Positions 1,531 to 28,791 of a stretch of 33,232 nt of DNA are shown here, in pieces (the stretch's first letter is position 1; the number at the start of each line of letters is the position of its first letter). Under the pieces are notes generated by a model. The model had not been told where the DNA came from. It worked only from the letters and a program-made list of their open reading frames with translations, and searched no databases. Origin of the DNA: a virus; IMG/VR virus record IMGVR_UViG_3300035182_000755, positions 1 to 33,232 of that record; one strand, written 5' to 3'. The position numbers were made by a program, and so were the translations under genes.

Positions 1531-1534
1531 GGCG

Positions 1535-3070: not shown

Positions 3071-3099
3071 GCCGCACCTCCGAGGTCGGGACCTAAGGC

Positions 3100-3122
3100 C
3101 CATATTGCCGGGCGTGTCACCC
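3100..3122 (-). repeat. 23-bp junction repeat, copy 1 (terminase/portal)
   Basis: Identical to the copies at 1567-1589 and 32466-32488. It starts with the last Gly codon and TGA stop of the large terminase and then occupies most of the short gap before the portal ribosome site. Function is unknown; a regulatory site, a recombination boundary or duplication debris are all possible. Confidence 0.85.
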
Positions 3123-4568: not shown

Positions 4569-4572
4569 GTGG

Positions 4573-5061
4573 TCAGCCTTTCGCCAGCTTGGAGACGAGA
4601 CGTTCGCGGATGTCCAGGACCATGCTCTGGCCGGCAATCTCGAGCAGGCCGCCGCGAATCCGTGCCAGCGGGTTGAGCCCGAGCACGTCGGAGAGCTGGC
4701 GCATAGTGGTGGCAGCGTCCTTCTGCACCTTGACCATGGGATTGACGACCGGCCCGTAGGCTCCGTCGGTCATCAGGCCCTGGGCGTGAATCATGGCGCT
4801 TGCTTGCAGGTGTAGGTAGGTAGCCTCGCAGTAGGCGCGCAAAAGGACAAGGTCGGGAGCACGCAGGTGGCGGTTCGCGCCCATCTCCCTGACGCAGGCG
4901 CTCCAGACGTCGCGGACCTGCCTCGGCATGTCAGCAGGCGGCTCCGTCTCCGCCAGATCCCCGGCCGGCAGCGCCCTCGTCAGGGCCGCCTTCTCTTGAC
5001 CGCGGGGAGGCCGCTTGCTGACTTCCGGGCGCGTCCTTGCCTTCGGCGGCGGCCCGCTCAC
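4573..5061 (-). CDS. terS: Terminase small subunit, P27 family
   Basis: This 162-residue protein should bind the packaging site and recruit the large subunit. The basic, Pro-rich first 35 residues are followed by the family pattern: a Trp in 'VRDVWSACVREMG', then 'LRAPDLVLLRAYCEATYLHLQA' and 'GPVVNPMVKVQKDAATTMRQLSDVLGL', the P27 or Terminase_4 signature. It ends just before the large subunit and overlaps the upstream zinc-finger gene by four bases (5058-5061). The position at the head of the packaging module fits. Confidence is high from motif order and neighbour. Confidence 0.9.
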   Translation of the reverse strand: MSGPPPKARTRPEVSKRPPRGQEKAALTRALPAGDLAETEPPADMPRQVRDVWSACVREMGANRHLRAPDLVLLRAYCEATYLHLQASAMIHAQGLMTDGAYGPVVNPMVKVQKDAATTMRQLSDVLGLNPLARIRGGLLEIAGQSMVLDIRERLVSKLAKG

Positions 5062-5402
5062 AATACGCCCTCGAAGTAGTCATCGATCGCGCAGGCGATC
5101 ACATCGCCGAGCATACGGCAGCGCCAGGCAAGTCGCGGCTGCGCCTGCGACCCGAGCCTGATCAGCGCTCCAGAGAGACGTTCGGCCTCGAGCAAGGCCA
5201 CGGCCACCTGCTCATCCGTTTCCGCGGGGCGCGGCGCGGCTGCTGCGGCGGGCTCTGCTCGGCGCTGGCGTCCGCTCTCCTCGGCCTTGCGGAGTCTGTA
5301 GGCCCTTTTCCGGCAGCGGTCCGAGCAGTAGAGCGGCGGACGGCCAACGCCGGTCGGCGTGATCTCGTTTTGGCATTGGGGTCCTGCGCAGATCATGACC
5401 AT
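5058..5402 (-). CDS. Small zinc-finger protein upstream of terminase
   Basis: A 114-residue protein of unknown role. Residues 5-35 hold a four-Cys cluster (CAGPQC, then YCSDRC), a likely zinc-binding ribbon that also fits the form of small DNA- or RNA-binding phage proteins. An Arg/Lys-rich stretch, an Ala/Pro linker and a helical C-terminus follow. It is the first gene after the 120-bp gap at the early/late boundary and overlaps the terminase small subunit. No good ribosome site precedes ATG 5402; ATG 5396 is an alternative start. It could be a packaging accessory factor or a transcription regulator of the late genes; neither is shown by the sequence. Confidence 0.75.
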   Translation of the reverse strand: MVMICAGPQCQNEITPTGVGRPPLYCSDRCRKRAYRLRKAEESGRQRRAEPAAAAAPRPAETDEQVAVALLEAERLSGALIRLGSQAQPRLAWRCRMLGDVIACAIDDYFEGVL

Positions 5403-5522
5403 AGTATGCCACTTTCGTCACCCGCTTTCGTCCCCCCCGGTTTCCCAACCCGCGGAAATTTGCGCGGGGCGGCTGGCAGGGTGGGCGCGATGGGCTTGCA
5501 GTGATGATACCCCCCTACCCCT
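5399..5522 (-). promoter_or_regulatory. Early/late junction gap; possible cos or late control region
   Basis: A 120-bp noncoding gap separates the early operon (ends 5523) from the packaging and structural genes (start 5402). It has a run of seven C followed by GG (5432-5440) and an imperfect dyad around AAATTT flanked by CGCG near 5450-5466. Next to the start codon, 5399-5423 is a loose relative of the 23-bp repeat (GGGTGAC, six bases, GGCA, then TATGG). A cos site directly upstream of terminase genes is common in HK97-like phages. I see no convincing -35/-10 pair. Either assignment is inference. Confidence 0.35.
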
Positions 5523-6005
5523 TCACTGCGTCGCTGCGCCTTGAGGCCGAGCGAAGGTCGCTGCTCCCGAGATGCGCGCGGATGCGGACGCCACTCTCCA
5601 CAGCGCATCTCCTAGTGTTGCGGGAGTTGCCCAGGAAGTAACGCGCCCATCGAAGAAGCCGACTCCAAGAGACGCGCATATCTCCTGCGCCGCAACCTTC
5701 ACGGCTCTGCGCCGGGCGCCCGGACGATTGACAGCCGCCCCGAATCCTTCTCCATAGTCGGTGACCTCGAAGCGCCCCTCGTCCTCTCGCACATAGACGA
5801 CCACGCTATCGCCCTGCGGATAGAACATCGGGAAGTCGCAGGCGACGCGATCGTCAAGCTGACTGAAGCTCACCTGTCGGGTAGACAGCCCCGCCTGCTC
5901 TGCCTCGGCCTCGGCCTGCCCCAGCATCTCACCCACGACGGCCGGTGGCACGTACCGCTTCCCGTCAACGAAGCTCTCGCGCTTCCCGTCGTATCGGATG
6001 CTCAT
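5523..6005 (-). CDS. DUF1828-like protein, last gene of the early operon
   Basis: A 160-residue protein. The middle part, 'FYPQGDSVVVYVREDEGRFEVTDYGEGFG' (about residues 60-90), resembles the DUF1828 core: a small beta sheet ending in a (L/V)TDxG motif. That family has no firmly known function. A helical C-terminal part with a Gly/Ala-rich end follows. It starts with ATGA overlap on the previous gene's stop at 6002 and ends the early operon. It might belong to a group of accessory genes with 6002-6592 and 6589-6981, possibly host-interaction or anti-defence factors; this rests only on position. Confidence 0.75.
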   Translation of the reverse strand: MSIRYDGKRESFVDGKRYVPPAVVGEMLGQAEAEAEQAGLSTRQVSFSQLDDRVACDFPMFYPQGDSVVVYVREDEGRFEVTDYGEGFGAAVNRPGARRRAVKVAAQEICASLGVGFFDGRVTSWATPATLGDALWRVASASARISGAATFARPQGAATQ

Positions 6006-6592
6006 GACTCGCTCTCTTCCACAAGCGGCCCCTCTTCACCACTGAGATAACGAGCGAGAAGTCCAGCCTGTGCATCCCACGCTGCATCCCACGCTGCATC
6101 CCTCGCTGCATCCTTCGCTGTGGTGCCTGCTGCGTCCTTCGCTACGGCACACGCTGTGGCCCACGCTGCGTCCTTTGCTGCGGCGCTTGCCTCGCCGTAT
6201 TTGGCATAGGCCACGCCCGCGTTGAGGCAGTCGCCCAGCAGACGCGATGGTTCCAGATTCAGATGAGCCACGAGCCTCGCGCAGTCCATGGCGAACAGTC
6301 GCTGGTTCCTCTCGTTCCACTCTGGGACTCGGCGCACGAGCCGCAGTTGCTCTGCCGCCGACTTGTCGCTGCCGTGGACCTGCTCACCCTTCACCTCGAT
6401 TTCGTACAGCGCCTCGCCAGCGTGGATGATGGCTTGTTTGAGATCGCGGCAGTAGTGATAGCCAGACGTGCAGAGGACTGGTTTCTGCTTCGGTAGCCAC
6501 TTGCCGGGACGTTTGCCGTGTGGCAGGTAGTCGGTGTAGTCGCCATAGCCGTACGATCCGGTGGTGCCGTTCATCATCTTGTAAATGCTCAT
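6002..6592 (-). CDS. DUF7666-like protein with Ala/Asp repeat tail
   Basis: A 196-residue protein. The first 100 residues ('MSIYKMMN...KPVLCTSGYHYCRDLKQAI...ALYEIEVKGE') match the pattern I know from phage and plasmid proteins labelled DUF7666: a leading 'IYK' strand, then 'C.SG.H.C' and 'YE.EV.G'. Function is unknown. Residues about 135-180 are degenerate repeats of AAKDAA/AAWDAA, encoded by imperfect 12-bp units between about 6065 and 6185; many proteins of this family carry Ala-rich repeat tails. The ATG at 6592 overlaps the upstream stop as ATGA. The frame is open to 6913, but that extension overlaps the upstream gene. Confidence 0.75.
   Translation of the reverse strand: MSIYKMMNGTTGSYGYGDYTDYLPHGKRPGKWLPKQKPVLCTSGYHYCRDLKQAIIHAGEALYEIEVKGEQVHGSDKSAAEQLRLVRRVPEWNERNQRLFAMDCARLVAHLNLEPSRLLGDCLNAGVAYAKYGEASAAAKDAAWATACAVAKDAAGTTAKDAARDAAWDAAWDAQAGLLARYLSGEEGPLVEESES
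6065..6185 (-). repeat. Imperfect 12-bp tandem repeat inside coding sequence
   Basis: On the plus strand, units close to GCATCCCACGCT and GCATCCTTCGCT recur about ten times, encoding the Ala-Trp/Lys-Asp-Ala repeats of the DUF7666-like protein. Unit number is likely to vary between relatives. Confidence 0.75.
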
Positions 6593-6981
6593 GACTCGCG
6601 CTCTCCCCTCACGGGGGGTTCCCACAGAGACTCGCCATCGAACCACTCGGTATGGCAGTGCTCGTGCGGCATCGTGTAACGATCGGGACCCCGCGCATAG
6701 CAGCGGAATCCAGACGACCATCCATATCGTGCATATGCGCAGTTCCCGCAGCACTTCAGCCGCTCCAGTTCGGCCTCGGCGCTCTCGGCTCGCTTGCGTT
6801 CGGCAAGGAACGACTCGTACTCGGCTTTGTGTGCGCCCGCCAGCTCGGCGATGGCGGCGTCGGCGAGACGCTTTGGTACGACTCCTGACAGTCCTGGCTC
6901 GGGCGGCGTCCACGCCCGGTACTCATCCAGCGCATTCATCTTATCTGTCGGTTCGTATTTGGGCATGTCGAGTGCGCTCAT
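6589..6981 (-). CDS. Hypothetical coiled-coil protein with Cys cluster
   Basis: A 130-residue protein I do not recognise. Residues 40-75 form a predicted helix or coiled coil rich in Glu, Ala and Lys. The C-terminal 55 residues contain CCGNCAY, CYARG and HEHCH, a probable zinc-binding site of the 'CxxC...C...C' type found in many small phage proteins. It starts in ATGA overlap with the 39-residue gene upstream and ends in ATGA overlap with the DUF7666-like gene, so it is translationally coupled on both sides. Confidence 0.72.
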   Translation of the reverse strand: MSALDMPKYEPTDKMNALDEYRAWTPPEPGLSGVVPKRLADAAIAELAGAHKAEYESFLAERKRAESAEAELERLKCCGNCAYARYGWSSGFRCYARGPDRYTMPHEHCHTEWFDGESLWEPPVRGERES

Positions 6982-7097
6982 GCGACCACTCCCTGTCGGT
7001 CGTCAGTCCGTCGGCGTGGCCGCGGCGGGAGATGCTTGCCCCACCGCTCGTTCCAGCGGCCGTAGTCGTAACGCGGGTTCCACGCGGGGCGATACAT
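6978..7097 (-). CDS. Very small hypothetical protein (39 residues)
   Basis: A 39-residue basic, aromatic-rich peptide (MYRPAWNPRYDYGRWNERWGKH..., then an Arg-rich end). ATG 7097 has a clear AGGAGG site eight bases upstream, and the stop overlaps the next start as ATGA; these two facts are the reason for the call. An ATG further upstream at 7184 is in frame but lacks such a site. It follows a 130-bp gap, the largest inside the early operon. Function unknown. Confidence 0.6.
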   Translation of the reverse strand: MYRPAWNPRYDYGRWNERWGKHLPPRPRRRTDDRQGVVA

Positions 7098-7227
7098 ACA
7101 TGCCTCCTGCTCCATGCCGCGTATTTGGGCCGTAGAGGCCCCTCTCAGGCGATTTGGTGCCGGGTGGCTACTCCGACGCCTCAAGCGGGCGTCATCGCCT
7201 TAGAACGCGGATTCTGCGTGGTGGTGG
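7098..7227. other. Noncoding gap in early operon
   Basis: A 130-bp interval without a supported gene. It has a short hairpin at 7175-7193 (GACGCC, seven-base loop, GGCGTC) and a small near-palindrome around 7138-7149. No T-run follows the hairpin, and there is no convincing promoter or tRNA. It may mark a processing site, an attenuator or a lost gene. Confidence 0.4.
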
Positions 7228-7533
7228 TCACCGGCCGTCATCCCCGCTCCCGTCTTTGCCGCAGGCAGCCCGGCGCCGGCGCGCGAAGTGCCAAGGCCAC
7301 TGCTCCAGGCGGTAGCCGGGCTCTCCCGCAGCAGCGTCGACGCACCACCTGTAGCGCCGGCGCAGCTTCCCTACGGCCTTATTCACGTCGATGTTGGTGG
7401 CCAGAATGCCGCGGCGCTCGAGCTCCTGCTGCAGCCAGACCTTCTGACCGGGGCGCTCGACGGCGGCAGTGAGTAGCTGGCCGGCCACGGCAAGGACTAG
7501 GTCATCCGGGTGCAGGACGCGCCAGTTGTTCAT
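7228..7533 (-). CDS. Hypothetical winged-helix-like protein
   Basis: A 101-residue protein with a basic C-terminus. Residues 5-75 ('DDLVLAVAGQLLTAAVERPGQKVWLQQELERRGI...VNKAVGKLRRRYRW') suggest a small helix-turn-helix or winged-helix fold with a beta hairpin at 'GEPGYRLEQW'. DNA binding is an inference. ATG 7533 overlaps the MT-A70 stop as ATGA; the longer frame from 7575 lies within the methylase gene and is not preferred. Confidence 0.65.
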   Translation of the reverse strand: MNNWRVLHPDDLVLAVAGQLLTAAVERPGQKVWLQQELERRGILATNIDVNKAVGKLRRRYRWCVDAAAGEPGYRLEQWPWHFARRRRAACGKDGSGDDGR

Positions 7534-8102
7534 GGCCGGCCCATCTCGACATCGCACCGACACTCGTTGCCCCATGTGTCCCAGCCAAGGCGTTGACGGC
7601 GAGCGAAGAGCTCAAGGTAGGGGCCGGGAGATACTTGCTCGACTAGATCCAGGAAGGCCTCGGGCTTCTGCGAGTGAGCGGCGCGCGGCCACTCGTACCA
7701 CGTCGAGTCCGTGCGCCGCAGGGGCCTCGGGCGGCCACGCCGCGCAACGATGACAAACTCCGTCGTGCTCGCGAACACGCCGCCTGGCCCAATGCCGCGC
7801 CGCGGCTTGCACCACGTCAGTATCTGAGAGAATCGGAATCCCCACGACTCTGACACATCGTAGGAGTCGCGCAGGTAGCGGTTCGTCGTCCACAGGTATA
7901 GCGTCGCGTCCTCTTCTGCCATGTCGGCGACTGGCAAGGCGCAGATGTCCGCGACGGACATGGCCGGGTATGGGAGCGGTGCCCTCACGTTGCAATCCGC
8001 GGGGATTCCGTTGCGGTTGAACTTCGACTTGGCCGACGTACTGGCTGTTGGCCACAGGTGGTACTCCCACGGCGGGTCCGCAACGATGGTCCTGTATTTC
8101 AT
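7530..8102 (-). CDS. MT-A70 family adenine-N6 methyltransferase
   Basis: A 190-residue SAM-dependent methylase. The catalytic DPPW motif is at residues 9-12 (IVADPPWEY), followed by 'DATLYLWTTNRYL' and 'GFRFSQILTWCKPRRGIGPGG', and the C-terminal 'PYLELFARRQRLGWDTWGNE' motif, all typical of phage MT-A70 enzymes. The expected reaction is methylation of adenine N6 in DNA, which could hide phage sites from host restriction or mark DNA. It lies between RusA and a small HTH-like gene in the early operon, with overlaps on both sides. The target sequence cannot be read from the protein. Confidence 0.92.
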   Translation of the reverse strand: MKYRTIVADPPWEYHLWPTASTSAKSKFNRNGIPADCNVRAPLPYPAMSVADICALPVADMAEEDATLYLWTTNRYLRDSYDVSESWGFRFSQILTWCKPRRGIGPGGVFASTTEFVIVARRGRPRPLRRTDSTWYEWPRAAHSQKPEAFLDLVEQVSPGPYLELFARRQRLGWDTWGNECRCDVEMGRP

Positions 8103-12372: not shown

Positions 12373-13525
12373 TATCTAGAATCCCAGCCTCGCGAGCCAG
12401 GTACGTCCACGCTGCAGCCATCGTGAGAGGCACCTGGCCGTTGCCAAGTGCGCGCAGGCGGTTGACGCGAGAGGACACCCCGACTGCCACTCTAGGGATG
12501 CGTCCTCCCATCCAATCGGCCAGCCCATGAGCCATGCCGTCCACGCAGGGTTCAGCGAGCCGGGAGTCGGCGGAATCCCCTCCGCTATTTCCGCTTGCTG
12601 CTCCAGACCCGGCGGCGAACTCTGGCCGCCGTTCGCACTCGGAGCCATCGCGCGTTCTGACTTGCGGTTCATTGTGCAGGGTGTCTGCCACGTCTGCGGG
12701 ATCGACCGCCCATGGGCCGCCCCAGTCCTCAGGTCCACTTGGTACCGCACCGCATCCTGGAGGTATGTCGCCCTGAGAGTGCCGCCGAAGGACTCCCTCC
12801 GGCACCCCCACTGTTCGGTCGTGCACTCTCGCGTCGTAGCCGTGGCGGTCGGCCACATCCCGCGCGCTTTCGCCGCCTTGCGCGAGTTGCTGCCTCCATC
12901 CAGTCCAGTAGTCCGTGCGGTAGGCCAGAATCCACAGTCGTTTGCGTCGATGCGGGGCGCCGACATCGTCTGCTCCCAGCACGCACCATTCCGCATCGAA
13001 CCCCGCTTCGGCCAGGTCTCCGAGAACGGTTCCGAAGTATCCTGAGCTGAGAAGTCCAGGCACATTTTCGAAGAATCCCAGCGGCGCGCCAGACTCGACC
13101 AGTATGCGAACGGCGTGTGGCCACAGGTTGCGCGGGTCATCCTCGCCGAGTCGCTTGCCGGCATGACTGAACGGCTGGCATGGAAAGCCGCCGGTGACGA
13201 TGTCGCACGATCCGGGGACGGGATGGAAGGTGCGTACATCGGGGTAGACGGGGAACTGAACAGGCCAGGATGCTGCCTCTCTGCTTCGATTGCGTGCGTC
13301 AGGTACAGGCTGTGACGGCTGCCCGAGAGCAGGTTCTGCACTTTGGAGTTGTTCCGTCCTGCTCCCGGCATCTGCGCTTGTGGTGTCGGCCATATAGCCG
13401 CCCCGCGCACAGAGGACTCGCTGGCAGTAGGAGTCGTACTCAACAGCGGCAACTGTTCGCCATCCGAGGAGCATTGAGCCGAGCAGTCCGCCGCCCGCGC
13501 CGGTGAAGAGTGAGAGTTCACGCAC
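12368..13525 (-). CDS. C5-cytosine DNA methyltransferase
   Basis: A 385-residue enzyme that methylates cytosine C5 in DNA using SAM. Motif I is 'LSLFTGAGGGLLG' (5-16), motif IV 'GGFPCQPFSHAGKRLG' has the nucleophile Cys116, motif VI 'FFENVPGL' follows near 151, motif VIII is 'GAPHRRKRLWIL', and motif X 'RALGNGQVP' is near the C-terminus. The variable target-recognition region between VIII and X is long and Gly/Asp-rich. GTG 13525 overlaps the preceding small gene by eight bases; an ATG at 13669 lies in that gene. No companion restriction gene is visible, so self-protection against host restriction is likely. Confidence 0.95.
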   Translation of the reverse strand: MRELSLFTGAGGGLLGSMLLGWRTVAAVEYDSYCQRVLCARGGYMADTTSADAGSRTEQLQSAEPALGQPSQPVPDARNRSREAASWPVQFPVYPDVRTFHPVPGSCDIVTGGFPCQPFSHAGKRLGEDDPRNLWPHAVRILVESGAPLGFFENVPGLLSSGYFGTVLGDLAEAGFDAEWCVLGADDVGAPHRRKRLWILAYRTDYWTGWRQQLAQGGESARDVADRHGYDARVHDRTVGVPEGVLRRHSQGDIPPGCGAVPSGPEDWGGPWAVDPADVADTLHNEPQVRTRDGSECERRPEFAAGSGAASGNSGGDSADSRLAEPCVDGMAHGLADWMGGRIPRVAVGVSSRVNRLRALGNGQVPLTMAAAWTYLAREAGILDT

Positions 13526-13697
13526 GGTCGGAGTCGTCGCGTGTGGTCGCTCCGTAGGTGCGCAGCGTCGCCCATGCGGCGGCGAGCGCGTCGGCCTGTT
13601 CCATGTTCCGGTTCGTGATCGGCGAGTACTCTGCGATGATGCGCCGAGCGGTCGCGACCTCTGCCTCAATCATCTTCGGGTTCATCGTGCAATCCAT
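13518..13697 (-). CDS. Small hypothetical protein before the cytosine methylase
   Basis: A 59-residue, mostly helical protein (starts MDCTMNPKMIEAEVATARRI). AGGAGA lies seven bases before ATG 13697, and a near-consensus promoter lies upstream, which together support it strongly. It overlaps the methylase start. It may be a small partner of the methylase or an independent factor; no motif is recognised. Confidence 0.72.
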   Translation of the reverse strand: MDCTMNPKMIEAEVATARRIIAEYSPITNRNMEQADALAAAWATLRTYGATTRDDSDRA

Positions 13698-14046: not shown

Positions 14047-14083
14047 GAATGTCACCTCCTTCAGAGAGCCCGGTCGCGGAGGG

Positions 14084-15385
14084 TCATACCGAGATCCTGC
14101 ACTGAGCGTCAGCGGCCTCGATGCGTCGGCGAGCGATTTCGACGTACTCGGCCTCGCGCTCGATGCCGATGAAGGCGCGGGACTCCTCAACGCAAGCGAC
14201 GCCCGTAGTGCCACTGCCCATGAACGGGTCGAGCACCACGTCTCCGGGCCGTGCCACGAGCTTGACCAGCCAGCGCATGAGGGCGATGGGTTTGACGGTT
14301 GGGTGATGATTGGCTCGCGGGCGCGGCTTGATCTCTATTGGCGCGCTTGTGTACGGATGCACTCCATAGGCCCGGTCGCCCAGTGCGACCGACTGCACGA
14401 CTATCTGCGGCATCCCCTCCAGCCCCGCGTCTCTTTCCTTCCGGCTCGCCTTGGCGCAGTAGAAGAAGCGTGATGCGCCGCCGCCCTGCCCGTACCCGAC
14501 GTCCCGCGTGTCCTTCTTCCGCGCCCCAAGAATCCGGTTCGCTATCTCGCCTCCATTCCGGTTATGGCCCACATGGAAGCCATCGCGCTGCATTCCAGAC
14601 TGCGCGTCAAGAAACGCCGCCGCCTCTTCGTCCAGAACGAGGTTCGCAGGCCAGCGACCGGAAGGGGACGACTTGGCGATGCCGTCACCTATCAGGATTT
14701 TCTTCCCGCTGCCGCTGCCATAGTTGCCCCCGCGCATATCGTCCCGCATACCACGGCGCTCCCACGGCTCGCCCCCGGCGACCCGACACTCCTCAATCCC
14801 CAGCGCCCTCTTCCGACCCGGCTTGCGGGCGAGGATGATTGGCTCCCATGCGGGCTTGAGGTTGGCATCCCCCTTTGGAAACCCGGTTCCGTACAGCCAC
14901 ATGATCGTGTCGCGTATCTCAAACCCGGCGTCCTCCAGAGCGCAGGCTAGTCGGTGCCAAGTGCGTGTGCCGCCAAATGCGAGCAGATAGTGGCTGGGCT
15001 TAAGGACGCGGAGGGCTTCTGTGGCCCACGCCTGATGCCACTCCTGCATCATGGCGGCGCGGTGGGCGTTACGGCTGTGGTACGCCTCGCCCTTCACGCG
15101 CCATTCGGGAGACTCGCAGTTGCACTTGTTCGCGCCGCGCATCCTGCCTCCGCAGACGGCGCAGGTAGCGTTCGCCGTTTCGCCGCCGTAACTTACCCAC
15201 TCCGTCGCTCGGTCGCCGAGGCCGCACTTGCTCATTCCGCCACCGTCGCGCCAGTCCAGCTTGTCCCACGACATGCCCATGAACTCAAGTCCATACGGCG
15301 GGTCCGTCACGACCGCGTCCACCGATCCTGCCTCCATCCCGGCCATGACCTCGAGACAGTCGCCGTGATGCAGGGTGAAGCTCAT
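14084..15385 (-). CDS. Beta-class DNA N4/N6 methyltransferase
   Basis: A 433-residue amino-methyltransferase. The catalytic DPPY motif (VVTDPPYGL, residues 25-33) comes first and the SAM-binding 'VVLDPFMGSGTTGVA' motif near the C-terminus, the beta-class order. 'HHPTVKPIALMRWL' is also diagnostic. A large insert between them holds a Cys cluster (CAVCGGR...CNCES) and a Gly/Arg-rich region, probably involved in target recognition. The product is N6-methyladenine or N4-methylcytosine; the sequence does not decide. Start ATG 15385 overlaps the lysin stop as ATGA. It lies inside the lysis region, an unusual place for a methylase. Confidence 0.93.
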   Translation of the reverse strand: MSFTLHHGDCLEVMAGMEAGSVDAVVTDPPYGLEFMGMSWDKLDWRDGGGMSKCGLGDRATEWVSYGGETANATCAVCGGRMRGANKCNCESPEWRVKGEAYHSRNAHRAAMMQEWHQAWATEALRVLKPSHYLLAFGGTRTWHRLACALEDAGFEIRDTIMWLYGTGFPKGDANLKPAWEPIILARKPGRKRALGIEECRVAGGEPWERRGMRDDMRGGNYGSGSGKKILIGDGIAKSSPSGRWPANLVLDEEAAAFLDAQSGMQRDGFHVGHNRNGGEIANRILGARKKDTRDVGYGQGGGASRFFYCAKASRKERDAGLEGMPQIVVQSVALGDRAYGVHPYTSAPIEIKPRPRANHHPTVKPIALMRWLVKLVARPGDVVLDPFMGSGTTGVACVEESRAFIGIEREAEYVEIARRRIEAADAQCRISV

Positions 15386-16050
15386 AGCGACCACGCCGGA
15401 TAAGGCGAGTCGTGCTGCACGTCGTGGAAGATGTGCCAGGCGGTGCGGCATTGATTGAGCGGGTCACTCATCCACGCAGCACCGCACGGCCACCAGCAGC
15501 CAGCCAGTTGGTACAGGCCGTAGCAGCCGGAGCCCTGATGATTCCAGACGTGCGGCGACCCGCTCGACTCGCGCATCACAATCGGCACCATCACGCGGAT
15601 GCCGTACTCGCTCCAGCCGGCGTAGCGCATCGCGGGGACCCATCGTGCCGCCCCGCTCCCGCCGGGATGGCGCAGCTTCGCGATGCCCTCCTTCGTCTTC
15701 GCCCGCCAGCCGTTCGCCTGCGCCCTCCATCGCCGCGATGCCCGCGTCCACGCCGCCTCGCTCTGGAGCCGCCTGGGCGCAGGAGAGACGCGGACGGGCA
15801 GTGAGTCGCCGAAACACCTGCGGACGCGGGAAAGTGCATTCCGCGCCCTCTCAGCGCGGCGGCGATTGGCAAGGGCGGAGTGCACGGTCGCCGAGGAGGC
15901 GGGAGCAGGTGGGGGCGACGCGCTCGGCGTGGCCGCCGGAGCCGGAGAGGCCGGCGAAGCGCCGGCGAGCGCAGCGAGCGCCAGCGCGGCCACGGCCACG
16001 ATCAGGCCAATGGTGAGCAGCACGATCGCCAGGGTCAATGAGATCCTCAC
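15382..16050 (-). CDS. Membrane-anchored transglycosylase/lysozyme-like protein
   Basis: A 222-residue protein. Residues 1-30 form an uncleaved or signal-type membrane helix, residues 31-55 an Ala/Pro/Ser linker, residues 56-135 a basic helical region, and residues 136-222 a lysozyme-like fold: 'WSEYGIRVMVPIVMRESSGSP' with likely catalytic Glu161, 'GSGCYGLYQL', and 'DPLNQCRTAWHIF', typical of SLT or Rpf-like glycosidases. It should cleave cell-wall glycan. The GTG at 16050 has GGGAGG six bases upstream, better than the open frame from 16134. It may be a second lysin or a virion-associated exolysin. Confidence 0.8.
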   Translation of the reverse strand: MRISLTLAIVLLTIGLIVAVAALALAALAGASPASPAPAATPSASPPPAPASSATVHSALANRRRAERARNALSRVRRCFGDSLPVRVSPAPRRLQSEAAWTRASRRWRAQANGWRAKTKEGIAKLRHPGGSGAARWVPAMRYAGWSEYGIRVMVPIVMRESSGSPHVWNHQGSGCYGLYQLAGCWWPCGAAWMSDPLNQCRTAWHIFHDVQHDSPYPAWSL

Positions 16051-16137: not shown

Positions 16138-16479
16138 TCACTCGCAGATGAGCGTCCCGCCTTCCTCGATCGGGCGCTCCGTGACGGCTGCGACGCGGAC
16201 CAGGACCTTATACGAGCCCGGCTCGAGCCGCACGGCGCCGGACTGCGTGACGGAGTTGGCGACGAGGCAGAGCGCGTCATAGCCGTCGGCTAGGGGGTCG
16301 GCGTCCCAGGTGGCGGCGTTGTACGTCGCCTCAGATTCCGATGCGCCAGGCGCGACGAAGGCGAGCTCCACCGTCCCCCCGGTCGGGTCATAGCGCGCGC
16401 CGCTGCGCTTGGGCGGCCGGATGCGCACGCGCACGTACTTCCATGCGCCGCGCTTCAGCCTCAGGGTATTCACGGTCAT
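16138..16479 (-). CDS. Hypothetical virion or tail protein
   Basis: A 113-residue, beta-rich protein ('TVELAFVAPGASESEATYNAATWD' and 'LEPGSYKVLVRVAAVTERP'). The pattern resembles small tail-associated Ig-like domains that are common after tail fibre genes. ATG 16479 overlaps the stop of the repeat protein as ATGA; the frame is open upstream to 16878 but would run through that gene. Confident it is a gene, unsure about function. Confidence 0.68.
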   Translation of the reverse strand: MTVNTLRLKRGAWKYVRVRIRPPKRSGARYDPTGGTVELAFVAPGASESEATYNAATWDADPLADGYDALCLVANSVTQSGAVRLEPGSYKVLVRVAAVTERPIEEGGTLICE

Positions 16480-17657
16480 GGCCCGTCCTCCAGTGCATAG
16501 GCGCGGACGCTCCAGTCGTCCCCGCGGCTTGTCTTCCATGCATCGCCCGGCAGGTGGCACGTCCAGGTCTGCACGAGACCTTCGACGCTCCAGGTGATGC
16601 CGCTGATCTTCCGCGTTACCGAGCCGGTGGCGAACGCCGCGCTCACGCTCTGACTGACGAGCGCCAGCTCCCACGTCGCGTGCGTGACGGTCGCGGTCGC
16701 GGCCACCGCCGACTTCGCTTCGCCGGTATAGTTCAGCTCCAGCGTCCGATGCACCGCCGCCGTGACGACGACGGCAGACGTGGCCTCGCTGGCAAGCATG
16801 AGCTCCCACGTCGCATGGGCCACAGATCCGGCGGCGGCTACGGTGCTCTGCGCCTCCGATGTGAGGGCGAGATCCCACGTCGCATCAACCTTGCCGGCCG
16901 CGGCGGAGACCGCGCTCTTCGTCTCGCTGGCAAGCGCAAACTCCCACGTGGCGTGGGTGACGGATCCACTGGCCGCTACCGCGCTCTTCGCCTCGCTCGC
17001 AAAGGCGAGTTCGTGCGTCTGCGCGCCCTGCTTCTGCCCGGTCGCCGCGACCGCAGATGCCGCCTCGGACGCCAGCGCCAGCTCCCACGTCGCGTGCATG
17101 ACGCCGCCGGTGGCGGCCACCGCGCTGACGGACTCGCTGGCAAGCGCGAGCTCCCACGTGGCGTGGGTGACGGAACCTGTAGCGCTGGCCGCGGACTTGG
17201 CTTCGCCGGTGAGGGCCAGCTCCCAGACCGCGTGAGTGACGCTGCCCGTCGTTGCGACGGCGGACTTGGCCTCGCTCGCTAGTGCCAGTTCCCACGTGGC
17301 CCGCGTGACAGAGCCGGTCGCCACTATGGCGCTCTTGGCCTCGCTGGCGAGCGCGAGTTCCCATACGGCATGAGTGACGCCGCCCGTCGCCGTGACGGAA
17401 GACTCAGACTCACTCGCGAAGGCCAGGTCCCATACTGCCTGCGCGACGGAGCCGGTAGCCGCTACGGCGCTCCCCGCCTCGCTCGCAAGCGCGAGCTCCC
17501 ACGTGGCGTGCGTGACGGCGCCCGTGGCGGAGACTGCGGACTTGGACTCGCTCGCGAGGGCAAGCTCCCATGTGGTGGGCGCGGCGGATCCGCCCAGGCC
17601 CCAAGTGACGAGAAGATCGCTGCTGTCGCCGAGCCCGCGTGTGACGATGACGGACAC
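16476..17657 (-). CDS. Tail fibre-like protein made of 23-residue Trp repeats
   Basis: A 393-residue protein. From about residue 29 to 345 it is built of fourteen tandem copies of a 23-residue unit, close to 'TWELALASEAKSAVAATG' plus 'SVTHA'. A different C-terminal domain with several Trp follows (residues 346-393). Repeats with W-x-(V/L)-x-A spacing are known from minor tail proteins of actinobacterial phages, where they likely form extended beta stalks. One unit near the middle has 24 residues and lacks Trp. Start is GTG 17657, directly after the previous stop. Role in host contact is inference. Confidence 0.8.
   Translation of the reverse strand: MSVIVTRGLGDSSDLLVTWGLGGSAAPTTWELALASESKSAVSATGAVTHATWELALASEAGSAVAATGSVAQAVWDLAFASESESSVTATGGVTHAVWELALASEAKSAIVATGSVTRATWELALASEAKSAVATTGSVTHAVWELALTGEAKSAASATGSVTHATWELALASESVSAVAATGGVMHATWELALASEAASAVAATGQKQGAQTHELAFASEAKSAVAASGSVTHATWEFALASETKSAVSAAAGKVDATWDLALTSEAQSTVAAAGSVAHATWELMLASEATSAVVVTAAVHRTLELNYTGEAKSAVAATATVTHATWELALVSQSVSAAFATGSVTRKISGITWSVEGLVQTWTCHLPGDAWKTSRGDDWSVRAYALEDGP
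16620..17575 (-). repeat. 69-bp tandem repeats in tail fibre-like gene
   Basis: About fourteen diverged 69-bp units encode the 23-residue repeats. Conserved stretches such as GAGCTCCCACGTCGCGTG (plus strand) recur at regular spacing. Divergence is mostly synonymous or conservative, so the repeats look old and selected rather than a recent expansion. Confidence 0.85.
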
Positions 17658-19219: not shown

Positions 19220-20113
19220 TCAGTTCGACTCGTCGAGACTGATGGAGATGTCACCAGCAGCGATGGAGAAGATGTCCCCGACGTCGATCTCGACGTCGTT
19301 CGGAAGCTGCTTGATAGCGTAGTAGTGACCGATGGGCCCAGAGGCGGTGTCCACGAGAGCGACGTAGCGGCAGATGCCCCAAGCAATCCCTGCGGCACTC
19401 CACGAGTTCACAGCGGCAGCATTGCTGATCTTGTAGCCGGTGCCACTCACGGCGGCGGCGTTCCAGAACGTTGAGGACGTGATGGCAGGGCGGGAGTAGT
19501 TGGTGCCCGATGTGGAGACCTCGGTCCCATTCGCGCCTGTCATCAGGTTGATGGCCGTGGCCGACGTATAGACGGCCAGGTAGGCCGTAGCCGGAACGCG
19601 GTTGGCCGACTGGTCAGCGATGAGCAGGTGCTGGAGCATGGCCGTCTTGGCCTCTGTGCTGATGCCAGCTAGCGTTGTGACATCGAGCTTGAGCTGAAGC
19701 GCAGCTGCCGCGAAGCGCGCCGTGTCGCCAGTTGACGGGTCACGCGGCGTGGTCAGCGCGCCTCCCCAGAGCAGGTCGCTGCCGCTGGCGTTGCCGTCGA
19801 AGAGCGCCGCGCCGTTGATCGCTGGCCAGTCCGAGCCGACGGACCACGAGAAGGCGGATGTCAGCTTGTTCTGGCCGACCATGCCGTTGCCGGACGCGAT
19901 GACCTCCCAATTGGTCGAGCCGCGCGCGGCGAGCTGGCCATACTGGACGTAGCCGGTTCCTACCATCTCGGTCCCGCCAGTCGGCGGATTCGACTCAAAA
20001 TCGGTCGGGTTCGTCGAGTAGAGGCGAATGTAGGGGTCGGCACCCGTCCACGTCGCCCTGCGGAAGTACCAGTCGAGCAGCTGCTGCTCTGCGTAGTTGC
20101 TCATTCCTGCCAT
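19220..20113 (-). CDS. Tail protein with two related domains
   Basis: A 297-residue protein containing two copies of a fold: residues 5-150 ('AEQQLLDWYFR...PYIRLYSTNP...GTEMVGTGYVQYGQL') and residues 155-297 ('AKTAMLQHLLI...AYLAVYTSA...GTEVSTSGTNYSRP'). Each begins with a helix, then a Tyr-rich strand and a 'GTE(M/V)...Y' turn, as in short phage tail proteins that carry one such domain ('LYTSNPT' type). Here the two are fused or duplicated. AAGGAG precedes ATG 20113. Probably part of the tail tip or fibre assembly; precise role unknown. Confidence 0.75.
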   Translation of the reverse strand: MAGMSNYAEQQLLDWYFRRATWTGADPYIRLYSTNPTDFESNPPTGGTEMVGTGYVQYGQLAARGSTNWEVIASGNGMVGQNKLTSAFSWSVGSDWPAINGAALFDGNASGSDLLWGGALTTPRDPSTGDTARFAAAALQLKLDVTTLAGISTEAKTAMLQHLLIADQSANRVPATAYLAVYTSATAINLMTGANGTEVSTSGTNYSRPAITSSTFWNAAAVSGTGYKISNAAAVNSWSAAGIAWGICRYVALVDTASGPIGHYYAIKQLPNDVEIDVGDIFSIAAGDISISLDESN

Positions 20114-20781: not shown

Positions 20782-20802
20782 GGCTGCCTCCCGATAACGG
20801 CG

Positions 20803-20982
20803 TCAGGAACTGGGTTGCTCCTCTTCCTGGAGCCGCCCCCATCCGCGGCAGACCTCGCGGAAGGCGGCGCGGCTCATGTCGATCGCGTCGGCTCCGTGGT
20901 GGATGACGACGGCATGCTGGTCGGCCTCGACAAGTATCCGGCCGTCTCCGTAAATGGTGCGCGTCTCTTCGCCCATGCTCAT
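20803..20982 (-). CDS. Small hypothetical protein (59 residues)
   Basis: A 59-residue acidic protein with a beta-hairpin start ('TRTIYGDGRILVEADQHAVVIHHG') and a helical end. It is coupled to the HNH gene upstream by ATGA overlap at 20979-20982 and has GGGGG in its ribosome site. It might be a small regulator or inhibitor of the nuclease or lysin next to it; no direct evidence. Confidence 0.65.
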   Translation of the reverse strand: MSMGEETRTIYGDGRILVEADQHAVVIHHGADAIDMSRAAFREVCRGWGRLQEEEQPSS

Positions 20983-23565: not shown

Positions 23566-25536
23566 TCATTTGCGTCGGCGCCTCTCCAGGCGCAGGTCGA
23601 GACGGGTGAGCCGGCGCTGGCTGCGCGGCCGCGCGGTAGCGGGGCGACCGGGAACAGAGGCCGGGAAGCGCCCGACGTAGCCGGTACTGCCGAGCTCAAG
23701 GGTGACGCGGTCCTGCTCGGCGTCACATGTGGTCGATGTGATGAGGGCTCCTGTCACCTGGCCGCAGGTGATCGCGTAGCCGGGGCGGATAGTCGACGCG
23801 CCAGCGATGCCGGTCAGGATGATCGTTCCGCTCCAGCGGCCGGGCAGGCGCTCGAGGCAAGCGAGCTGCCCCATGCGCTCCGCGCCCTTCGCTCCGGATG
23901 TGTCGCTGGTGGCGTCGACGAAGGCGACGCGGTCGCCTTCGGCCGGCTGCCAGCCAAGCGGCGGGTAGCTGACGTCGCCGTCGGCCGTGACCGTCATGAG
24001 CGCCGGCGTGTTGACAACGAGCATCCCACTGGGCTGTTCTGCTGCCGCTGGCGAGTATGCCACGAGCGCGTAGTCGACCGCGCCCTCGTCATCGAGGCTG
24101 GCGTCGATCTCAACGCCGGGGCCGTATGGGATGGTGACGCTGCCGTAGGTATGTGCAACCACGAGCCTGCCGTCCTCCCACACGCCCCAACACATCTGCG
24201 CCGGGTAGAGGGCAAGCAGGGACTCAATCGCCGCGAGCCTCGTGGTGAACGGCGGCACGACGATACTCGTGGTCGGGGCCTTCGGGTCGCTCTCGGAGAG
24301 CCGCATGGCCGGGACGGACGCGCCGGGCACCACGAGGCGGATGGCCGCGCCGACGTCATCGTCTGTGAAGTGCTGCGCCCTGATCGCGAGGTTGCTAAGC
24401 TCGACGTACTCCCCGGGCTCGGCGTAGATGCGATTTACGGCAACCCACTTCGTGCGGATGATGTGGTCGGCGTTGACAGAGTAGCGGGTGCTGAGGTTCA
24501 CAGGCAGGCGCACAGGCTTGTACGTAGCGTAGATGACCACCATGCGCGTCCCGGGATGCACGGTGAGGCGGAAAGGCTCCTGCTCTTCCGTCTCAAAGCG
24601 AGCGCGATGACGTGGCAGGCGAATCGTCACGCGCTTGGTCTTCGCGTGCGAGGTGCGGCCGTCGAAAAGGTGGAGCAGATGCGGATCATTGCGCATCGCC
24701 CAGGGATCGTCTACCGGCAGGTCGGCGGCGTCGTTCACGCCGTAGATGCCCACGAAGGCGGTCGCCGGGGCGTGGTCAAGCCCGTAGAAGTCGGCCCAGT
24801 AGTTGATTCGGGGGTACCGGCTGAAGCGGTGGCCGTACTTCTCATCTGCGGGGCCGATCGGGTTCGCGTAGTCGGGCGTCTGCATAGCATCGAGCTTTGG
24901 CGTCCGCAGGTCCCAATAGGCATCGAAGGAAAACGACGTGATGGGGCGCGGCGAGAGGCCGCCGCCGATGACGTAGTAGGCGGCCGTCCATAGCGTCGCC
25001 GGCCAGGCGAAGTCGGAGTGCTGGTATCGCGGGACCGCGTTGCCGATATGGTCGTAGGCGGTAGCGCCGGCCTCGTCCGGGTCCGACTGATGCACGATGA
25101 GCTTGTCGGTGTCGGGCCAGCTAAAGGCGAGCGAACCCTCGGTCGCGACGTTGACCCGGAAGTGAGGGGCCGCTGCCCAGTTGCCGCAGTCGGCGGTCTG
25201 CCACGCGGAGAGGTCGCGGTGGACGAAGACGGCCTCATACGTCTCATCGTCGGCGAGTTCGGCGAAGCGGCCGACGCACTCGACGTTGTAAATGAGCTTC
25301 TCGCCGGTGCGCGCGAGCGAGGAGCTCGCGACCTTGCCCTCGAAGACGTGGACGCCCTCGGAGACGATCGTGACCGGCGTGCCGTAGGCCGGCGGCGGCG
25401 TGAGCTGCTGCCACGACGCTGACCCATAGCCGCCCTGGTTCTTGTTCGACCAGGTGAGGCCGAGAGGATCGGCGCAGCAGGACACCGTATAGTTGCCAAG
25501 CAGACGGTGTGGGATGATTCCGCGTGTGGGGCTCAT
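23566..25536 (-). CDS. Large tail protein, ReqiPepy6 Gp37-like
   Basis: A 656-residue, beta-rich protein in the place of the tail-hub or baseplate-like protein of siphoviruses. Features such as 'VVPPFTTRLAAIESLLALYPAQMCWGVWEDGRLVVA', 'PGYAITCGQV' and 'CDAEQDRVTLELGSTGYVGRFPAS' fit the Gp37-like group of actinobacterial phages, which resembles the gp27/Dit-Tal hub fold. A central part (about 280-330) contains His-rich 'DPHLLHLFDGRTSHAKTKRVTIRLPRHRARFETEEQEPFRL'. The C-terminal 30 residues are strongly Arg-rich. ATG 25536 overlaps the upstream stop as ATGA. Confidence 0.75.
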   Translation of the reverse strand: MSPTRGIIPHRLLGNYTVSCCADPLGLTWSNKNQGGYGSASWQQLTPPPAYGTPVTIVSEGVHVFEGKVASSSLARTGEKLIYNVECVGRFAELADDETYEAVFVHRDLSAWQTADCGNWAAAPHFRVNVATEGSLAFSWPDTDKLIVHQSDPDEAGATAYDHIGNAVPRYQHSDFAWPATLWTAAYYVIGGGLSPRPITSFSFDAYWDLRTPKLDAMQTPDYANPIGPADEKYGHRFSRYPRINYWADFYGLDHAPATAFVGIYGVNDAADLPVDDPWAMRNDPHLLHLFDGRTSHAKTKRVTIRLPRHRARFETEEQEPFRLTVHPGTRMVVIYATYKPVRLPVNLSTRYSVNADHIIRTKWVAVNRIYAEPGEYVELSNLAIRAQHFTDDDVGAAIRLVVPGASVPAMRLSESDPKAPTTSIVVPPFTTRLAAIESLLALYPAQMCWGVWEDGRLVVAHTYGSVTIPYGPGVEIDASLDDEGAVDYALVAYSPAAAEQPSGMLVVNTPALMTVTADGDVSYPPLGWQPAEGDRVAFVDATSDTSGAKGAERMGQLACLERLPGRWSGTIILTGIAGASTIRPGYAITCGQVTGALITSTTCDAEQDRVTLELGSTGYVGRFPASVPGRPATARPRSQRRLTRLDLRLERRRRK

Positions 25537-25997
25537 CCGATCACCGTTCCCCCCGTGATGTTGCAGCGCTTGCCGATGGTCCAGTCAGACGCAATCCTCG
25601 ACCCGTCGTCGATGTTGTAGCCGTCGCCGACGGTCACGCGGTCGCCGATGGTCACGTGGTCGCCGATGCGTGCCGAGACCGTCCCGAACCTGCAGTCCTC
25701 GCCGATGATAGTGCCGTCACCAACATGGGTGAGGTATGCTTCGTCGCTGATCCAGACGCTGCCGGCGCCGAGGCGCGCGCCGCTACCGATGTATGACGGC
25801 GCCCCTACGTCGACCCAGTCGCCGATGGTTGCCGTGCCGCCGCGGGCGATGTAGAGGTCGTGCCCGGCTAACCACTTGATATGTACGCCCGACGATGGCT
25901 GCACATGCCAGCCGTCGACGACCGGCCAGTCGTTCGGGTTGAGGTCTGGTGGCGTCCCGAAATCGGTCGAGAGATTCTCGGCGTAGAGGCGGCCCAT
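25533..25997 (-). CDS. Hexapeptide-repeat (left-handed beta-helix) tail protein
   Basis: A 154-residue protein. After a 50-residue N-terminal part ('NPNDWPVVDGWHVQPSSGVHIKW'), residues 55 to the end are repeats of the hexapeptide form ('ATIGDWVDVGAPSYIGSGARLGAG', 'TIIGEDCRFG', 'ARIGDHVTIGDRVTVGDG', 'WTIGKRCNITGGTVIG'). The [LIV]-[GAED]-x2-[STAV]-x pattern builds left-handed beta helices in acyltransferases and other proteins. Here no catalytic His or acyltransferase context is visible, so a structural helix is likely. It ends abruptly on TVIG, and starts in TAATG overlap with its neighbour. Confidence 0.72.
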   Translation of the reverse strand: MGRLYAENLSTDFGTPPDLNPNDWPVVDGWHVQPSSGVHIKWLAGHDLYIARGGTATIGDWVDVGAPSYIGSGARLGAGSVWISDEAYLTHVGDGTIIGEDCRFGTVSARIGDHVTIGDRVTVGDGYNIDDGSRIASDWTIGKRCNITGGTVIG

Positions 25998-26950
25998 TAG
26001 GGCCTCACAATCGTGCCGTCAGCGACCGTCGTCCCGTCTGGGATGACGTAGTCATTGACGAGGATATGCACGTCGCTGCCGATCACGCAGTAGGTTCCGA
26101 TTCTGACTCCGCCGGAAGTCGTCGTCCTGTCGCTGATCGTGGTGCAGTCCCCAATCACGTTCCCCGTCGCTAGGTCAACGCCGCCTCCGATCGCGCACCC
26201 GTCGCCTACGGTCCCCTGGTTCATGACGAAGTCGTCGCCGATGGTGTTCCCCCGCACGGGAACTACCGGCTCGACCGGCTCGCGGCTCTTGCCCGGGGTC
26301 GGGATCGCCTTGCCGGTCGGATCTGAGAGGTTGAGGGCGCGGTCAATCGCCCGAATGATGTAGGGCTTGTTCGCGTCCGTCGTTTCGTCGGTCCACTCCA
26401 GCCGGTGAGCATCCGTCTTCCTGACGCGGTCGTTCTCCTCGTCAACCCAAAGCACGGCGTCGGGCTGATGTTCGTTGGCGCTGTAGATGAAATAGGCAAG
26501 AACGCCGCTCTCGTCGTCGCTGGATGGCAGCCACGATATCCGGTTGCCCTTGCTGGTGTGCACCGCGCGCAGATCGTCAGGCGGCGTCGGCGGCGTCACG
26601 TCGGCGGAGGCGCCCGCGCGCCCGGGCATCTCTACGTCGATCGTCGGGCCGACTTGGCGCAGGCCGCCGCCGGCGGCCTTTTCCATGACCCAGTACGTAG
26701 CCCGGCTGCCGTTCGCGATGTGCTCGTCGAGGAATGCCTCGGCATCGGTTTCACCGATGCAGACGGCTGGGCCGCCGCTCTCCGGGTCGATCGCCCGCCA
26801 GATCTCACAGGTGCCGAGCAGTTTCTCTTTGATTGGCTTGCCCTCGGGGTCGGCTGCGAACGTGGGGCCCGTGCCCGAGCCCCACGTGATGAGGCAGCAA
26901 CCGTCGCCGGTCCACGGCCCCGGAGATCCGCCCGCACCTTCGGCGCTCAT
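25997..26950 (-). CDS. Tail protein with FN3-like domain and beta-helix end
   Basis: A 317-residue protein. Residues 1-110 are an unassigned N-terminal domain, about 118-215 are an FN3-like fold ('PPDDLRAVHTSKGNRISWLPSSDDESGVLAYFIYSA' to 'PYIIRAIDRALNLSDP'), and 233-317 hold hexapeptide-like repeats ('NTIGDDFVMNQGTVGDGCAIGGG', 'NVIGDCTTISDRT', 'RIGTYCVIGSDV', 'YVIPDGTTVADGTIV'). The same repeat type follows in the next gene, so the pair may form one continuous helix or arise from a split gene. It lies directly after the tape measure gene. Probably tail tip or fibre; details are inference. Confidence 0.72.
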   Translation of the reverse strand: MSAEGAGGSPGPWTGDGCCLITWGSGTGPTFAADPEGKPIKEKLLGTCEIWRAIDPESGGPAVCIGETDAEAFLDEHIANGSRATYWVMEKAAGGGLRQVGPTIDVEMPGRAGASADVTPPTPPDDLRAVHTSKGNRISWLPSSDDESGVLAYFIYSANEHQPDAVLWVDEENDRVRKTDAHRLEWTDETTDANKPYIIRAIDRALNLSDPTGKAIPTPGKSREPVEPVVPVRGNTIGDDFVMNQGTVGDGCAIGGGVDLATGNVIGDCTTISDRTTTSGGVRIGTYCVIGSDVHILVNDYVIPDGTTVADGTIVRP

Positions 26951-28791
26951 CAGTAGGCCGTCCTAGCGGTGAGCCGCTGCCTTTTGGCGAGCTTGGCCTC
27001 CACGAGGCCGGCCACCTGGCCCGCGAGCATCTCGGCAGCGCGCCTGTCGGTGCCATGCAGGTTGTCGATGCGAATGCCTCCGAGGTTGATAACGACCGTT
27101 TGCGAGCCCGCCGAACTTCCGGCCGGGGCTGCGAATGCGAAGCGCGTGGCGCTGCCCACGCCCGCGCCGGCCGGCAGAGACGCCCCCAGGAGTGCCTCGG
27201 ACGCGCTCCGCACCATGCGCTGCCCGCCCCCGATGCCAAGCGCGAGGCCCTTGGCGACGTTGCCGCCGATCTCGGCGAAGACTTTGGATGGCGATCCGAT
27301 GTGCAGAACCTTCTTCGCCCACTTGACCGGCTGGCCGATGAGGCCCTTGAACCAGCCCTCGAGGTGCCCCCATTCCCAAGAGATGCCCTTCTTGATACCC
27401 GAGACGATCGCCTTGCCGATATCGACGAACTTGGAGCCGACGTCAGAGAAGACGGCGACGATCCTCGCCCAGGCGGCCGCGATGGCACTCCTGATACGGG
27501 CCCACATCTTCTCTGCGGCGCTCAGGATCTGCCGCCAGTGGCCGGCGATGACGCCGGCCGGGCTCAGCCTGAAGGCGTCAACGATGAGGCCCCACACGCG
27601 GCTCAGAAAGTCCTTGATCGCGTTCCAGATTTTCGCGGCCTCTTCCTTGACCAGGCGCCAGTGCTTCACGACGAGCATGACCATGATGCCGATCGGGCCG
27701 ATGATGGCGGCCAGGATTGCCTCGCCCCACTTCTTGAAGGCGCCGACGAGCCAGTCCCAGACCGCCACGGCGGCTTTCTTTATGCCGTCCCAGACGGCGG
27801 TCACGAGGCGGCGGAAGGCCTCGTTCTTCTTCCACAGGATGATGATCACGGCAACCAGCGCGGCGATCGCTGCGATGACCAGGAAGATCGGGTTCGCGTC
27901 CATGGCGGCGTTGAGGAGCCACTGCGCTGCGGCCGCCATCTTCATCGCCTTGCTGACGGCGATTACCGATTCGACGAACGGTGCGATGATCAGGGCGGCG
28001 CCGGCCATGGCGGCGATGCCGATCACGAGCTTCTGAACCGGCCCCGGCAGCGCTTGGAACGTCTGCAATAGCCCGGTCAGCGCACCCATGAGCGAATTGA
28101 TTGCCGGCAACAGTGCCGTACCGACCGTCACCTGCAGCGCCTTGAGGGCGTTCCTGAACTTGTCCTGTGCGCCGGCCGATGTGTCGCCGTATGCCTTCGC
28201 CTGCCCGGCGAAGCGCTCCTGCACTACCGCCAGCGCCTTCTGAGCCGGGGTGGTCTTCTTGAGCGTGATGCCGAAGCGGGCGAGCGAGCTATAGTTGCCG
28301 TTGGCGACCTTGCCGACCATCAGCGCAGCCCTGCCCAGGTCCATGCTCTTGGCGCGCGCCAGATCAGTCGCAAGGCTAAGGAGGTTCAGGCCCTTGGTGG
28401 CGCTGCCGGTGGTCTGCGTGAGTGTGCTGAGCGCGTTTTTGAGGTCAACGCCAGAGTAGGCGGAGATCTGCATCTGCTTATTGACCACGTCCTGCATGGC
28501 CCTCGAGTAGGTATTCCAGTCCCCGCCGGTAGCCTGCACCGAGGTCTGCAGCTTCTTCATCGCCACCTCGGCATCGTCCGCCGCATGGACGGAGTCCATG
28601 AGCCAGTGCGTGATGCCAGCCGCGGCGAGGCCGCTCGCGATCTTGGCGCCGGTGGAGCTGATCGCGGAGCCCATGCGGCCCCACACACTGGACTGACCCG
28701 CGACCTCGCGCTTCAGCTTTTGCAGGCTGGCCTCGGCGCGCTCGATCTGCTCCATGTTGGCCCGGCCATACACGTTTACGCTGACGGTCAC
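26950..28791 (-). CDS. Tape measure protein
   Basis: A 613-residue protein that sets tail length and helps DNA delivery. Seen: long Ala-rich helical N-terminus with heptads, several hydrophobic stretches (about residues 260-285, 303-325, 365-385), repeated W-motifs in 'IKKAAVAVWDWLVGAFKKWGEAI' and 'IWNAIKDFLSRVWGLIVDAF', and the C-terminal 'HIGSPSKVFAEIGGNVAKGLALGI' signature shared by many tape measures. By the usual rule of about 1.5 angstrom per residue the tail would be near 90 nm (an estimate). Starts at GTG 28791 two bases after the gp10-like stop, with GGAGGTG upstream. Confidence 0.93.
   Translation of the reverse strand: MTVSVNVYGRANMEQIERAEASLQKLKREVAGQSSVWGRMGSAISSTGAKIASGLAAAGITHWLMDSVHAADDAEVAMKKLQTSVQATGGDWNTYSRAMQDVVNKQMQISAYSGVDLKNALSTLTQTTGSATKGLNLLSLATDLARAKSMDLGRAALMVGKVANGNYSSLARFGITLKKTTPAQKALAVVQERFAGQAKAYGDTSAGAQDKFRNALKALQVTVGTALLPAINSLMGALTGLLQTFQALPGPVQKLVIGIAAMAGAALIIAPFVESVIAVSKAMKMAAAAQWLLNAAMDANPIFLVIAAIAALVAVIIILWKKNEAFRRLVTAVWDGIKKAAVAVWDWLVGAFKKWGEAILAAIIGPIGIMVMLVVKHWRLVKEEAAKIWNAIKDFLSRVWGLIVDAFRLSPAGVIAGHWRQILSAAEKMWARIRSAIAAAWARIVAVFSDVGSKFVDIGKAIVSGIKKGISWEWGHLEGWFKGLIGQPVKWAKKVLHIGSPSKVFAEIGGNVAKGLALGIGGGQRMVRSASEALLGASLPAGAGVGSATRFAFAAPAGSSAGSQTVVINLGGIRIDNLHGTDRRAAEMLAGQVAGLVEAKLAKRQRLTARTAY

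Follow-up and report, generated by a model that had tools for sequence, protein, structure and literature searches.

We describe a pair of adjacent tail genes, P0001 and P0002, that carry hexapeptide repeats directly behind the tape measure gene of a phage known from metagenome assembly (IMG/VR record IMGVR_UViG_3300035182_000755; its full 33,232 bases are referred to as the window). Virion genes occupy the minus strand at both ends of the window, the left end holding terminase (3117-4637), portal (1535-3103) and head protease (691-1749), and the right end the major head protein, head-tail adaptor and tail tube, followed by the tape measure. A tape-measure scan retrieved one close relative, IMGVR_UViG_3300035180_001005 (L005; 33,952 bases), with which the locus is compared. 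The features that matter to the argument are these:

26950..28791, minus strand: tape measure protein, 613 amino acids, matching PHROG tape-measure families (best E = 1.3e-53), with 86-87% protein identity in the relative.
25997-26950, minus strand: P0001, an open reading frame (ORF) of 317 amino acids.
26258..26950, minus strand: P0001 residues 1-231, two putative FN3-like domains and a proline-rich linker, kept in the relative.
25997..26257, minus strand: P0001 residues 232-317, the hexapeptide-repeat stretch, detected by Pfam Hexapep/LbH_EIF2B, phrog_5353 and periodicity.
25533..25997, minus strand: P0002, 154 amino acids, of which the first 25 or so are free of repeats and the rest hold up to 20 hexads, through the final residue.
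25536..26264, minus strand: exchanged cassette of 729 bases, comprising the P0001 repeats and P0002, delimited by blastn against the relative.
23566..25536, minus strand: P0003, the next tail gene, 656 amino acids, with no assigned family and 92% identity in the relative.

The genes run head-to-tail in the order tape measure, P0001, P0002, P0003, and their junctions overlap at TGATG, TAATG and ATGA, respectively. At the second of these the P0002 start overlaps the P0001 stop by one base, with a ribosome-site-like GAGG five bases upstream of the P0002 ATG. Coordinates, strand and the tape-measure match thus agree with a sequence-only reading of this DNA, which had placed two tail ORFs directly after the tape measure. 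P0003 matched no family in Pfam, PHROGs, NCBIfam or the PDB.

The same reading had proposed hexapeptide repeats in both proteins, and profile searches and a periodicity analysis support this. P0002 passes the Pfam Hexapep (PF00132) cut-off of 27 bits comfortably (48.1 bits, E = 7e-13, four stretches), while P0001 scores under it (19.8 bits, E = 6.4e-4, two stretches). Both proteins also hit the phage family phrog_5353, whose function is unknown (E = 7e-11 for P0002 and 1.6e-6 for P0001), and the repeat piece of P0001 (residues 232-317) does so by itself (E = 1.3e-7). When the window record was searched in six frames with Hexapep, all six matches fell inside these two ORFs. Periodicity was scored by dynamic programming for I, L or V at every sixth residue and compared with 5,000 composition-preserving shuffles; the observed scores of 10.5 (P0001) and 11.0 (P0002) were reached by none of the shuffles, whose maxima were 8.5 and 10.0. 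Cruder tests were less uniform. Shuffles as good as the longest strict in-phase run numbered 47 of 20,000 for the P0001 C-terminus and 874 of 20,000 for P0002, which is weak in this ungapped test because its repeat has bulges, and shuffles as good in motif count numbered 462 and 2 of 20,000.

In P0001 the repeats extend from about residue 230 to 317, or about 14-15 hexads, which would make four to five coils if the fold is a beta-helix. In P0002 they may start as early as about residue 26, not 50, and continue to residue 154 (20 hexads, with interruptions at 82-91 and 98-110). The earlier description of P0002 as starting afresh therefore holds in that the protein has a non-repeat N-terminus of its own, but this amounts to merely some 25 residues. 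P0002 also ends abruptly, within a hexad and with no C-terminal cap after the repeats, because the P0003 start region supplies its stop codon (ATGA). The repeat motif suggests a left-handed beta-helix fold for both stretches.

The N-terminal part of P0001 is of a different kind. Its second domain (about residues 112-173) bears a weak likeness to FN3 domains in PDB chains (best E = 0.24-0.29), and residues 114-232 match a region of NF041611 (E = 9e-4). The first 110 or so residues look FN3-like when read by eye, with no database match. A proline-rich linker, EPVEPVVPV, connects these domains to the repeats.

Comparison with the relative, the most informative line of evidence here, reveals a clean exchange at this point. 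The two phages are closely similar (97% identity in terminase), and homology covers 82% of the whole window. P0001 residues 1-231 are 94% identical to L005:6154-6846, but past residue 231 or 232 the relative reads on into an unrelated extension of 385 amino acids, giving a single chain of 616 amino acids, and P0002 is missing. Nucleotide homology stops at window position 26265 and resumes at 25535; the edges of the cassette thus lie at P0001 codons 229-232, within the linker, and at the P0003 start codon, which in both phages provides the stop of the last cassette gene (ATGA in the window, GTGA in the relative). Flanks are about 91-92% identical on both sides, and about 1.16 kb in the relative stands in place of the 729 bases. 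The P0001 repeats and P0002 behave as one unit, since the one relative is without both together. Base composition of the cassette (G+C 0.62-0.65, against 0.67 in the flanks; GC3 0.83-0.84 against 0.83-0.88) matches its surroundings and all reading frames are intact, making an assembly chimera unlikely. The relative's extension had no match in Pfam, PHROGs, NCBIfam, the PDB, 50,697 phage records or other viral contigs, and its 616-residue chain had no Hexapep match in six-frame search.

Within the head, tail and lysis region (16.9-33.2 kb and 1-5.5 kb), the non-homologous islands of at least 100 bases are the cassette and 172 bases at 20799-20970, so that the cassette is the sole island above 200 bp among virion genes in this comparison. 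The other large gaps (268 to 1,568 bases) fall at 5.5-8.8 and 12.4-15.6 kb, where no virion genes are situated. This one genome pair shows a constant, presumably virion-attaching part joined to a variable distal part. A constant mount whose distal part is wholly exchanged at a domain linker, as the only sizeable virion-gene difference, resembles the receptor-binding parts of phages.

On balance we favor the view that P0001 and P0002 form a device for recognition at the tail tip, in which an exchangeable head sits on a constant mount. P0001 would be anchored in the tail just past the tape measure by its constant residues 1-231, with the two FN3-like domains as a spacer and its C-terminus folded as a short beta-helix of hexapeptide repeats. 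P0002 would be a second, separately translated small beta-helix protein, made beside P0001 through coupled translation, and would most likely bind the P0001 helix or sit beside it at the tip, much as gp38 sits on gp37 in T2-type phages. The beta-helix surfaces may contact a sugar or protein of the host surface, and related phages that recombine at the linker and the P0003 start codon would swap the entire head at once.

The T2-type tips offer the closest arrangement. T2, S16 and PP01 carry a small beta-helix adhesin, gp38, encoded by its own gene, that sits on the fibre protein gp37 and sets specificity, whereas T4 does the same job with the gp37 tip alone (PMC6851490, PMC12892980). Two proteins in the window phage against one chain in the relative parallel gp37/gp38 against T4 gp37, and the gene order and joint exchange of the P0001 repeats and P0002 are compatible with a separate small adhesin on a fibre end. 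This is a likeness of arrangement rather than kinship: no gp37 or gp38 chain appeared among PDB matches of P0001 or P0002 at E<=1. The recognition part of gp38 is a polyglycine sandwich, whereas P0001 and P0002 have hexapeptide repeats, and the window mount, unlike that of the T2-type tips, has FN3-like domains and adjoins the tape measure. Dpo31, a marine podovirus tailspike, likewise has a beta-helix in a tail tip but is a large depolymerase; one tailspike paper calls its helix left-handed, and the word "hexapeptide" is absent from the Dpo31 text (PMC13317679).

Several points weigh against our preferred interpretation. Neither version of the head has a recognizable receptor-binding domain. 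Single-sequence AlphaFold2 models are too poor to judge fold or interface (mean pLDDT 43.7 for P0002 and 39.7 for P0001), and Foldseek, given the low-confidence P0002 model, returned nothing at E<=0.001 from the PDB or BFVD. Presence of the two proteins in the virion is argued from the genes. Bacterial and archaeal genomes, scanned twice with terminase, yielded no prophage from which a host could be inferred. With one close relative there is one exchange event, the direction of which is not readable. In the distant relatives, whose tape measures are about 53% identical, genes after the tape measure had no match to P0001-P0003, so that the constant mount is untraceable there. Alternatively, P0002 could be an enzyme or help in assembly; T4 gp38 is a chaperone that is released (PMC12892980).

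A structural role for the repeats would leave recognition to other genes. Hexapeptide helices are often scaffolds, and the beta-helix parts might serve the tail tip as passive stalks or spacers while recognition falls to other fibres, for which a downstream Gp80-type fibre gene (19220-20113) and a repeat-rich ORF (16476-17657) would be candidates. These downstream genes are kept at about 87-91% DNA identity except for the repeat array, whereas the cassette is wholly replaced, and a passive spacer is not expected to be the exchanged part. We consider this explanation unlikely. The two genes have features of their own. The first (minus strand) matches the podophage fibre family PF23140 in Pfam (E = 1.9e-33) and is labelled a head protein by PHROG; the tape measure of this phage is of the long-tail kind. 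The second contains a tandem array at 17036-17575 (minus strand) of a 69-base unit in 7.8 copies with 66% matches; the relative holds diverged copies in another arrangement, and the ORF is possibly a fast-changing repeat-bearing fibre or adhesin.

The sequence-only reading had suggested that the two proteins may co-assemble into one spike or stem from a split ancestor. Co-assembly would be plausible. In one form of it, the uncapped helices of P0001 and P0002 would build one composite solenoid spike running across chains, stacked either end to end or as trimers, an enzyme-type fold that has lost catalysis and serves as a receptor-binding tip exchanged as one cassette for unrelated modules; we regard this version as rather unlikely.

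The split origin is not supported. A single longer beta-helix spike, its gene broken into two frames whose products still stack end to end, would account for the shared repeat type and best phage family (phrog_5353) of the two halves, for their adjacency with a one-base overlap, and for the continuous chain at the same place in the relative. That fused chain, however, has no hexapeptide or family match, and P0002 possesses its own non-repeat N-terminus and GAGG, unlike what a simple frameshift split leaves. No fused beta-helix protein occurred in any record searched. Neither a fused homologue nor another tail with the cassette was found in the viral contigs, queried with P0001, P0002, P0003, an alignment of the N-terminal part and the relative's head, or in phages by tblastn. 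The search for a phage homologue as one fused protein, proposed earlier as a check, thus came back empty, and decay from a single ancestral spike seems quite improbable. A programmed frameshift fusing both ORFs was also considered; inspection by eye found no slippery heptamer before TAATG, and the idea was set aside as unnecessary.

Hexapeptide-repeat helices are a fold known mostly from enzymes, the repeat pattern being most familiar in those that modify sugars, and an enzymatic role must be weighed for each protein. Acyltransferase catalytic residues had been named beforehand as a finding that would refute the sequence-only reading; as aligned, P0001 is without enzyme histidines, the corresponding positions being Gly, Ala or Thr. 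Thr262 occupies the position of the LpxD histidine, which was read from chain 4e75, whereas chain 4ihf has Ala there. The best PDB match of P0001 is a gamma-carbonic anhydrase (chain 9rmq, E = 0.0035), a family that it resembles in repeat type. Two histidines of 9rmq and of the CcmM chain (3kwd), presumably zinc-binding, face Gly256 and Thr262 or Ala261, so that P0001 differs in having no aligned His. Its best NCBIfam acyltransferase score is 23.8 bits against a cut-off of 207.

P0002 is the more ambiguous of the two. It may be a left-handed beta-helix acyltransferase that modifies a host surface sugar or the phage's own tail, in the manner of prophage NeuO, with the P0001 repeats as its docking partner. 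LpxD/LpxA/NeuD models match P0002 along their repeats (best E = 3.2e-11). A four-residue bulge in the P0002 repeat ends in His91, which pairs in alignment with a histidine of 3mqg, an acetyltransferase of lipopolysaccharide biosynthesis. Enzymes of this superfamily as a rule carry their catalytic His on a loop that protrudes, according to the NeuO paper (PMC3046976). Membership is nonetheless far off, since the best NCBIfam score of P0002 is 43.0 bits against the cut-off of 207 and it lies far under every such threshold. The LpxA alignment places Asp94 opposite the second His of the LpxA chain, which we assume to be catalytic. Both window proteins differ from LpxD, LpxA, GlmU, NeuD and NeuO in score, in their place in a tail operon and in having no C-terminal cap; P0002 ends inside a hexad, and its gene is not among host-modification genes. 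An acyltransferase therefore appears improbable to us.

Searches of other genomes bear on how unusual the recognition device would be. Hexapeptide repeats had been called uncommon in this tail position, and the Hexapep six-frame search agrees: it hit one of six records at E<=1, which is the window itself, and none of 21 further ones at E<=0.01, that is, none of 26 others, many of which are fragments possibly short of tail genes. The tape measure was found in 5 of 12 records, four of them the distant relatives, while the N-terminal 231 residues of P0001 were found in 1 of 11, the close relative. Profile comparison of P0003 and the P0001 N-terminus with the distant relatives' tail proteins gave no match.

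Against the 50,697 phage records, tblastn with P0001 and P0002 gave no match at E<=0.01. At E<=10, P0002 reached 11 phage records, the best being Aeromonas phage Aeh1 (E = 0.08); there the annotation of the matching protein likens it to LpxD, and the genes around it are hypothetical. At the two other phage loci inspected, in Flavobacterium phage V156 and Sinorhizobium phage Phosso, there was no annotated tail gene, nearly all neighbours being hypothetical. A single viral contig, L002, matched P0002 (35% identity), and we discounted it as repeat similarity rather than kinship, the genome being unrelated and without recognised tail genes nearby. The hexapeptide proteins of L002, of Flavobacterium columnare phages and of Aeromonas phages have repeats like those of P0001 and P0002. 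The L002, Aeh1, V156 and Phosso loci differ in having no annotated or recognised tail gene nearby and mostly hypothetical neighbours. In L002 itself, two genes close to each other (5911-6615 and 7048-7644) consist almost wholly of hexapeptide repeats and begin alike; neither is near a recognised tail gene. Proteins of unknown function that resemble the first one are present in 65 phage records, and 51 of these are from Flavobacterium phages.

Exchange of tail-tip modules is already well known. In the open-licence literature searched, to the extent of the text available, we found no paper on hexapeptide repeats in a phage tail and no description of a two-gene exchangeable hexapeptide-repeat tip right behind the tape measure. 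If our interpretation is correct, it would add a compact, regular fold to the natural receptor-binding modules, and the locus would provide a clean natural swap, one constant mount with two unrelated heads, for testing what each head binds.

Further observations concern the records themselves. Window positions 3-487 match the first 485 bases of the relative and 361-5521 its last part, so both records share one gene order and differ by circular permutation in where it is cut. Two stretches outside the relative's homologous blocks, 12374-13515 and 14072-15639, coincide with DNA methyltransferase ORFs (12376-13575 and 14084-15451), which points to gain or loss of methyltransferase genes between the two phages. 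Two other records, L009 and L011 (G004 and G006), are both 61,563 bases long. In either one, terminase matches at two places and so does the tape measure, some 33 kb apart; each record probably joins a pair of related phages, or holds prophages in tandem.

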